Source of the DNA: Thermomicrobiales bacterium
GTDB taxonomy: Bacteria > Chloroflexota > Chloroflexia > Thermomicrobiales > UBA6265
Direction: 5' to 3'
Length of the DNA stretch: 37,519 nucleotides
NCBI GenBank assembly: GCA_020432165.1
Contig: JAGQGU010000020.1
Span: 1 to 37,519 of the forward strand
The notes under the pieces are model-generated. The model was not told the origin of the DNA. It did no database searches and saw nothing but the letters and a program-made list of their open reading frames with translations. Below, one piece after another: positions 27,340 through 28,947 of the stretch (positions are counted from its first letter, which is position 1; every line of letters starts with the position of its first letter). A program made the translations under genes and the position numbers.

Positions 27340-28947
27340 TTATCGTCGACTCGGAATCATGAGCGGCATACCGGTATTCTCATCGGTGAGGATGCTGCTG
27401 TGGATGCCATAAACCGCCAACATAACCTCTGGCACGATGACCTTGGTCGGCAATCCCTGAGCAACAACCTCGCCATCCTTCATGGCGATGATGTAGTCGG
27501 CGTATCGGGCAGCGAGATTGAGATCGTGCAGCACCATGACGATGGTTTTGCCATGATCGCGATTCAGCTGCCAGACAATATCCAGCAGATCGATCTGGGC
27601 AGAAATATCAAGGAAGGTAGTGGGTTCATCCAGCAGGAGCGTTGGCGTATCCTGCACGATGCTCATGGCGAACCAGGCGCGCTGGCGTTGGCCGCCGCTC
27701 AACATCTCCACCGGCATATCGCGCAGTTCGAGCAGGTTGCATTTCTCCAGCGCCCACTCCACCATGCGCTCGTCTTCCCGACTCCAGCGCTGCAGAATCG
27801 TCTGGCGAGGATAACAACCAGCGGTGACGAGGTCCTCCACGGTAAGACGGTCCGGAATCAGCGATCCCTGTCCAAGCAGCGCCAATTTCTGCGCCAGCTT
27901 GCGATGGCTGACTTTGGAGACTTCACTGTTATCCAGGAGGATCTGGCCTGCTCCGCGCTTCTGCAAGCGGCCGATGGTTTTCAGCAGCGTGCTCTTGCCA
28001 CAGGCATTCGGACCAATGATCGCGGTAACAAGCCCGCCTGGAATCTGAACAGTCAAATCCTGGGAGATCACATGATCACCGTAACCAGTCTTGAGCTCAC
28101 TAACCTGGAAACCCGGGCTTGCCGGTGCAAAGAGGCAGGATCCACACTGACTGTTGCTACGAGGCATACAGAAACGCGTACGGGGCAGCATTACATCCGG
28201 ACCATGACCGTGCATGTAGACATCGCAATGGATGCCATAGAGCGATGAAAGCACCTCCATCGTCACGACCTGCTCCGGTGTTCCGTCCGCAATAACACGA
28301 CCGTCGCGCATGGCAATGAGTCGATCGCTCACACTGGCAGCCTGATTGATATCGTGGAGCACCATGACGATGGTGCGCCCTTCCTCTTGATTCAGGCGCG
28401 TGACAAGCTGCATCACCTCGATCTCGTGGGCGACATCGAGATAGGTCGTCGGTTCATCCAGCAGCATCAACGGTGTTTCCTGCGCCAGGAGCATGGCGAT
28501 CCAGGCACGCTGACGCTGACCGCCGCTGAGTTCATCCACCGCGTTATCGCGCAAGCTCACCATATCAGCGAGTTGAAGGGCTTTTTCGACTGCCTCGTGA
28601 TCTTTCTTTGAGAGAGGCTGCAAAAACCTCTGGTGAGGATATCGACCGCGAGCGACCAACTCCTCCACAGTGATACGATCCGGATTCTCCGCCTGCTGTG
28701 AGAGCATACCCATATTGCGAGCCACGGCGGATGTGGACATGGAATGGATGTCCTGGCCGTTTAACAGCACCGTACCGCTACGCGGATTGAGAATGCGGGA
28801 CAAGGACTTCAGGAGCGTCGATTTACCGCAACCGTTAGGGCCAATAATGGTCGTAACGGTGCCTTCCTCAATCTCAAGATTCATGCCTTCCACGATCAGA
28901 CGATCGTCATAGGCAACGGCAAGGTCTTTGGCGGAGAGATAGCTCAC
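27340..28947 (-). CDS. Fused double ABC ATPase of an iron-siderophore importer
   Basis: A 535-residue protein made of two full FepC-like ATPase domains in one chain. Domain 1: Walker A GPNGCGKST (36-44), signature LSGGQRQRAWIAM, Walker B LMLLDEPTTYLD, switch histidine VLHD. Domain 2: Walker A GPNACGKST, signature LSGGQRQRAWFAM, Walker B TLLLDEPTTFLD, VLHDLN. Both look catalytically intact. The family norm is a ~260-residue single domain acting as a homodimer. The linker has C260, C268 and C271 (FCMPRSNSQCGSC), a C-x7-C-x2-C cluster that might bind metal. The GTG start has AGGG seven bases upstream. It is the third gene of the permease operon, 15 bases after the second FecCD gene, and should power uptake through those two permeases. 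Confidence 0.92.
   Translation of the reverse strand: MSYLSAKDLAVAYDDRLIVEGMNLEIEEGTVTTIIGPNGCGKSTLLKSLSRILNPRSGTVLLNGQDIHSMSTSAVARNMGMLSQQAENPDRITVEELVARGRYPHQRFLQPLSKKDHEAVEKALQLADMVSLRDNAVDELSGGQRQRAWIAMLLAQETPLMLLDEPTTYLDVAHEIEVMQLVTRLNQEEGRTIVMVLHDINQAASVSDRLIAMRDGRVIADGTPEQVVTMEVLSSLYGIHCDVYMHGHGPDVMLPRTRFCMPRSNSQCGSCLFAPASPGFQVSELKTGYGDHVISQDLTVQIPGGLVTAIIGPNACGKSTLLKTIGRLQKRGAGQILLDNSEVSKVSHRKLAQKLALLGQGSLIPDRLTVEDLVTAGCYPRQTILQRWSREDERMVEWALEKCNLLELRDMPVEMLSGGQRQRAWFAMSIVQDTPTLLLDEPTTFLDISAQIDLLDIVWQLNRDHGKTIVMVLHDLNLAARYADYIIAMKDGEVVAQGLPTKVIVPEVMLAVYGIHSSILTDENTGMPLMIPSRR

Follow-up and report, generated by a model that had tools for sequence, protein, structure and literature searches.

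A tandem ATPase in a predicted FecCD-type siderophore importer of Thermomicrobiales and Bacillota

Introduction

In a bacterium of the order Thermomicrobiales, the two ATPase domains of a predicted ferric-siderophore importer are encoded as a single protein, which is best read, at a probability of about 0.8, as a single-chain ATPase pair driving a type II (FecCD-type) importer with two different permeases. The gene lies in a window of 37,519 nucleotides, i.e., the whole stretch of DNA analysed here (contig JAGQGU010000020.1 of assembly GCA_020432165.1), from a 3.2-Mb genome assembled into 105 contigs. It represents a tandem-ATPase variant of the FecCD siderophore importers that is common to at least two phyla and of which a literature search covering titles and the openings of abstracts returned no description. 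FecCD importers that pair two different permeases normally use two identical copies of the ATPase, which makes it difficult to learn whether the ATP sites, or the contacts between ATPase and permease, differ in their job. As far as can be judged from sequence, the fused ATPase is ordinary in its chemistry and its usefulness would lie in being a natural single-chain motor with both sites intact, in which each half can be mutated separately.

Organisation of the importer locus

The fused gene (positions 27340-28947, reverse strand) starts with a GTG codon and encodes 535 amino acids, in which the Pfam family ABC_tran is matched in two stretches (E 3.1e-63). Three parts can be delineated, namely (i) a first ABC ATPase domain or NBD1 (about residues 1-262; 28162-28947, reverse strand), with the Walker A motif at residues 36-44, the LSGGQ signature at 140-144 and a tail comprising the strands 241-246 and 257-262, (ii) an interdomain linker (about residues 263-277; 28117-28161, reverse strand), and (iii) a second ABC ATPase domain or NBD2 (about residues 278-535; 27343-28116, reverse strand), with Walker A at 312-320 and LSGGQ at 416-420. 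Both halves possess the Walker A, Q-loop and signature residues, the Walker B residues (D164/E165 and D440/E441) and the H-loop histidines (H198 and H474), and very few of these vary across an alignment of 12 fused proteins; in 2 of the 12, the second half reads ISGGQ and GPNASGKS. As such, both ATP sites look intact.

Upstream of the fused gene, closely spaced and codirectional with it, stand two different FecCD permease genes, i.e., permease 2 (28963-30015, reverse strand; PF01032, E 7.7e-88) and permease 1 (30015-31082, reverse strand; PF01032, E 5e-97), followed by the gene of a binding protein (31245-32291, reverse strand; PF01497, E 1.5e-12), the best match of which among solved structures is the ferric-siderophore receptor DesE (2x4l; phmmer, E 5.7e-37). 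The preliminary description of this DNA had already proposed two complete ABC domains in one chain, matched by two distinct permeases, and both points stand. Both halves of the ATPase score best against the models of FecE, FepC and FhuC; the whole protein exceeds the cut-off of all three (NF008409, NF007606 and NF007863, respectively), by a margin that is not a per-domain value since the whole-protein score sums the two halves. In a phmmer search of the PDB, FhuC (7lb8) is the top match. Taken with the FecCD permeases and the DesE-like receptor, these similarities point to a ferric siderophore as the predicted substrate.

As regards the surroundings, a family 4 glycosyl hydrolase gene (25522-27057, forward strand) is convergent with the importer operon and adjoins it in a sibling species (genome G003) too. 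Directly upstream of the binding-protein gene lies a gene encoding a VanW/peptidoglycan-binding protein (32349-34103, reverse strand), a neighbour of the operon in G003 and in a further genome of the genus, G001. The G003 locus (L076, 1791-7491) holds the VanW gene, both permeases and the fused ATPase with no binding-protein match between them; the sole DesE-like relative in that genome is on a different contig (C28) and shows 33% identity.

Distribution and origin of the fusion

The same tandem gene is found in other genomes and the fusion is thus not an accident of assembly. Among the 61 genomes around the source genome, 13 carry it, the source included, and all belong to one order (E 1e-80); one of these copies (G006) is interrupted by a contig end, while a fourteenth genome, G001, has the operon with an ATPase cut after residue 156. 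At the level of the class, it was retrieved from 13 of 158 genomes (E 1e-90). For whole phyla, the best three candidates per genome were scored and the counts are consequently lower bounds: at least 4 of 400 genomes in the phylum of the source, all from the same order (E 1e-85), and at least 3 of 398 in the Bacillota (the phylum to which G504, the source of a Paenibacillus locus, L037, belongs), where the open frames measure 564, 573 and 617 amino acids. With these three Bacillota carriers, the view that the fusion is confined to one order was dropped. A pattern scan of 55 loci had found it solely in the genus sibling, which, given the carriers found later in the Bacillota, is not a fair test of absence. 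Plasmid matches covering the whole query were also considered as possible fusions and rejected; each of the six checked out of 30 listed contains one single-domain ATPase, which both halves of the query match.

The fused gene keeps company with its permeases. The set of two FecCD permeases and ATPase occurs in 11 of the 12 other loci of the order, the twelfth (L087) being interrupted by a contig end, and in all three Bacillota loci. The 14 of 61 genomes with an ortholog of permease 2 (E <1e-90) are precisely those that carry the fused gene, counting G001.

A tree built from 15 first halves, 15 second halves and 25 unfused relatives unites all first halves in one clade (100/99) and all second halves in a second one (100/99), on which grounds a single origin of the fusion is most likely. 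An earlier tree (12 first halves, 12 second halves and 30 unfused rows) agreed; five long unfused rows of that first tree (L110, L110b, L111, L112 and L120) were left out of the second, which left the grouping of the fused halves unchanged. The Bacillota first halves nest inside the group of the order, and the Bacillota second halves make up a separate group (84/90) beside that of the order, which suggests a likely transfer of the fused gene between phyla, in either direction. After its single origin, the fusion would then have moved together with its two permeases, across phyla too. The tree does not establish the two halves as closest relatives of one another, and it thus fits either fresh duplicates or two older ATPases as the partners of the fusion.

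Cysteines of the tail and linker

The fused ATPase has eight cysteines, at residues 40, 241, 260, 268, 271, 316, 378 and 403. The preliminary description had singled out three of them, spaced C260-x7-C268-x2-C271, as a group within the linker that could bind a metal or form a redox switch gating import. The spacing is indeed as described; C260 (codon 28168-28170, reverse strand), however, does not belong to the linker and sits on the final tail strand (257-262) of NBD1. Of the 15 fused proteins, 11 have a cysteine in this column (3 have Ser and 1 has Ile), as do 39 of 53 unfused relatives (54 matches less one without a readable Walker A, 2 of those counted being gapped at this column), and hence, on these alignments, C260 is a feature of the family and not a cysteine conserved just in fused versions. 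C268 and C271 (codons within 28135-28146, reverse strand) are shared by two of the 15 fused proteins, which both belong to this genus, and are missing from the other 13; the linker itself is variable in sequence, and the Bacillota proteins differ in linker length too. By the yardstick of the preliminary description, i.e., the conservation of cysteines and linker among fused homologs, the alignments refute the switch as a general mechanism, leaving this genus as its one possible setting. Cysteine sites also have precedents among ABC ATPases, PMC12136057 describing a [4Fe-4S] cluster in each of the E. coli ATPases DppD and DppF.

The only invariant cysteine among the four at 241, 260, 268 and 271 is one absent from the preliminary description, namely C241 (codon 28225-28227, reverse strand), which all 15 fused first halves share. 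A cysteine stands in this column in none of 12 second halves (the second half of a Bacillota protein, L136, has one), in 1 of 53 unfused relatives and in 3 of 30 of an overlapping set. C241 and C260 lie on consecutive strands (241-246 and 257-262) at the C-terminal end of NBD1, which, from the strand list of the predicted model, probably pair as a hairpin.

In its most favourable form, the cysteine reading would be restricted to the genus, where C241 and C260 on the tail strands and C268 and C271 in the linker would make up, at the end of NBD1, a metal or Fe-S site between the two NBDs that senses iron or redox status and gates import. All four cysteines are kept in G003, the sole readable relative in the genus, and residues 258-274 are under constraint there since 15 of 17 are identical despite silent differences in 9 of the 15 codons concerned; this identity is nevertheless near the protein average of 83% and the comparison is limited to two sequences, that of the third member of the genus (G001) ending before the linker. 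As described in PMC12136057, Opp/Dpp ATPases carry [4Fe-4S] clusters, the loss of which disrupts the complex, and M. tuberculosis OppD has an Fe-S domain between its two NBDs; the spacing of the genus cysteines, x18-x7-x2 over residues 241-271, differs from the x5-x6-x17 of E. coli DppD, and no Fe-S-type domain appears among the Pfam matches listed (25 of 27 families). Four cysteines also surround the same tail in one Bacillota homolog (L134), at a different spacing. Against a site of this kind weigh the distribution of C260, C268 and C271 given above, the composition of the region outside columns 241 and 260, where 10 of 511 tail and linker residues are Cys compared with 83 of 7741 elsewhere, a comparison that is not an independent one and gives a value little above background, and the predicted model, in which the linker is a low-confidence part (block means 62-72 for residues 241-280). 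All in all, a site of this kind is improbable even within the genus; if real, the importer would sense iron or redox in its own motor, as an independent counterpart of the inter-NBD Fe-S domain of M. tuberculosis OppD.

An apparent enrichment of cysteines in the tail and linker (26 of 393 residues compared with 69 of 6160) looked strong and was set aside, as it is driven by columns 241 and 260. Extra tail cysteines also occur in unfused ATPases from this order (L114, L117 and L118). In the Bacillota homolog L134 (6237-7928, reverse strand), the cysteines around the tail of the first domain are arranged as C-x3-C-x9-C-x2-C, which could reflect either chance or a distinct metal site. Cys378 (27814-27816) is a private change, this position being Arg in all 11 aligned fused relatives.

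Predicted fold and pairing of the two halves

The AlphaFold model of the fused ATPase (pLDDT 87.5, pTM 0.85) matches, over the whole chain, the M. tuberculosis proteins DppD (8wd9_D; Z 29.8, rmsd 3.2, 484 residues aligned) and OppD, with an identity of about 21-25% in the fold alignments. The single-domain matches are BhuV, HmuV and FhuC for the first half, and BhuV and BtuD for the second. The whole-chain match supports a head-to-tail pair inside one predicted chain, an arrangement based on one modelled chain and 12 aligned sequences. Most likely, the two halves would fold head-to-tail so as to build both ATP sites within the chain, with the linker acting as a tether and not as a conserved sensor. 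The paired halves would sit beneath the permease heterodimer, and thus each half would face a fixed permease.

Alternatively, fused chains could pair with each other, giving two chains with four ATPase domains and ATP sites formed between chains. The linker alone would leave such domain swapping possible, but the match with DppD and OppD over the full chain argues against it, as do the description of the DppD/OppD translocators as heterotrimers with two consecutive NBDs per chain in PMC12136057 and the presence of two permeases per fused gene at the loci. Pairing between chains is improbable, and the single-chain pair is retained.

With two distinct permeases in the operon, the dedication of one half to each permease would be plausible. 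Conserved docking differences between the halves were looked for and the idea was dropped as an argument, just 8 positions separating the first from the second halves consistently at the cut-off used; these lend weak support to a dedicated docking of the halves.

Receptors encoded elsewhere

The source genome (G000) encodes eight binding proteins of the kind found in the window, the one in the window included. The seven others are on other contigs, namely C92 (two, 68253-70326), C48 (40876-41778), C76 (93064-94059), C94 (two, 17817-19845) and C13 (12580-13524), these five loci being L126-L130. No FecCD match was found on the contigs of these seven DesE-like proteins and no FecCD permease among the 20 ORFs scanned in the neighbourhood of the remote receptors; on C94, an ABC ATPase and a permease of another kind (BPD_transp_1) are near the receptors. 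Seven remote receptors for one heterodimeric importer of this kind would possibly represent a receptor array feeding that importer.

Across the 61 genomes, a DesE-like protein (E <1e-25) and the fused gene occur together in 12, the receptor only in 1, the fused gene only in 2 and neither in 46 (Fisher 6.5e-10); in other words, the fused gene is present in 12 of 13 receptor-bearing genomes, the exception being G022, while the two fused genomes with no DesE-like binding protein at E 1e-25 are G036 and G047. The association holds, in the same order of categories, when whole genes alone are counted (10, 3, 2 and 46; p 1.9e-7), when the count is by genus (9, 1, 2 and 21; p 1.3e-5) and when the receptor has to be on a contig other than that of the importer (8, 1, 6 and 46; p 8e-6), in tests that ignore descent and where some of the other contigs may reflect contig breaks. 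Such a break is excluded in G007, where the importer is at about 24,000 of a contig of 283,968 bases and the receptors are near 300,000 of contig C12. The co-occurrence of the importer with scattered DesE-like receptors suggests, on moderate evidence, that one importer is fed by several of them, often encoded elsewhere.

That the fused ATPase would be a shared motor also powering permeases encoded elsewhere, as in S. aureus, where PMC10147376 describes FhuC as supplying energy to at least four transporters of iron compounds, is an improbable reading since, for all the 21 PF01497 matches compared with 10 FecCD matches (3 of them weak) in the source genome, the surplus is one of binding proteins and not of permeases lacking an ATPase, and the other clear FecCD genes (contigs C21, C31, C61 and C62) each adjoin a single-domain ATPase.

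Comparison with known systems

Respective to FepC, FecE and FhuC, the fused ATPase has both halves in the same sequence family and is associated with the same FecCD permeases and PF01497 receptor. In those systems, however, one single-domain ATPase is normally used twice, whereas two diverged halves are here present in one chain. FhuCDB, for instance, is described as containing two FhuC (PMC8660799), and the source genome also has ordinary single-ATPase FecCD systems.

The mirror image of the present architecture is offered by permeases of the FhuB type, where one chain joins two FecCD domains and is served by a single ATPase. FhuB-like fused permeases exist in the same bacterial family, with 755 (G025), 702 (G024) and 684 (G007) amino acids and a single ATPase near each, that of G024 being interrupted by the end of the stretch read; for a fourth, of 726 amino acids (G013), no ATPase was found in the stretch read. 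The loci with such double permeases (684-755 amino acids) are L114, L115, L116 and L118.

Two NBDs in one polypeptide are also known from RbsA and NupO of B. subtilis, each in an importer that PMC11466899 classes as type II; according to that paper, each has one degenerate ATP site, whereas both sites look canonical here. The closest counterparts in overall fold are M. tuberculosis DppD and OppD, the best whole-chain matches, which likewise bear two consecutive NBDs per chain serving a pair of permeases. PMC12136057 describes their NBDs as joined either through an Fe-S domain or without one, and no domain of that kind was found here among the Pfam families listed. DppD and OppD are peptide importers, unlike the system described here, which would apply the same single-chain arrangement to a predicted siderophore importer.
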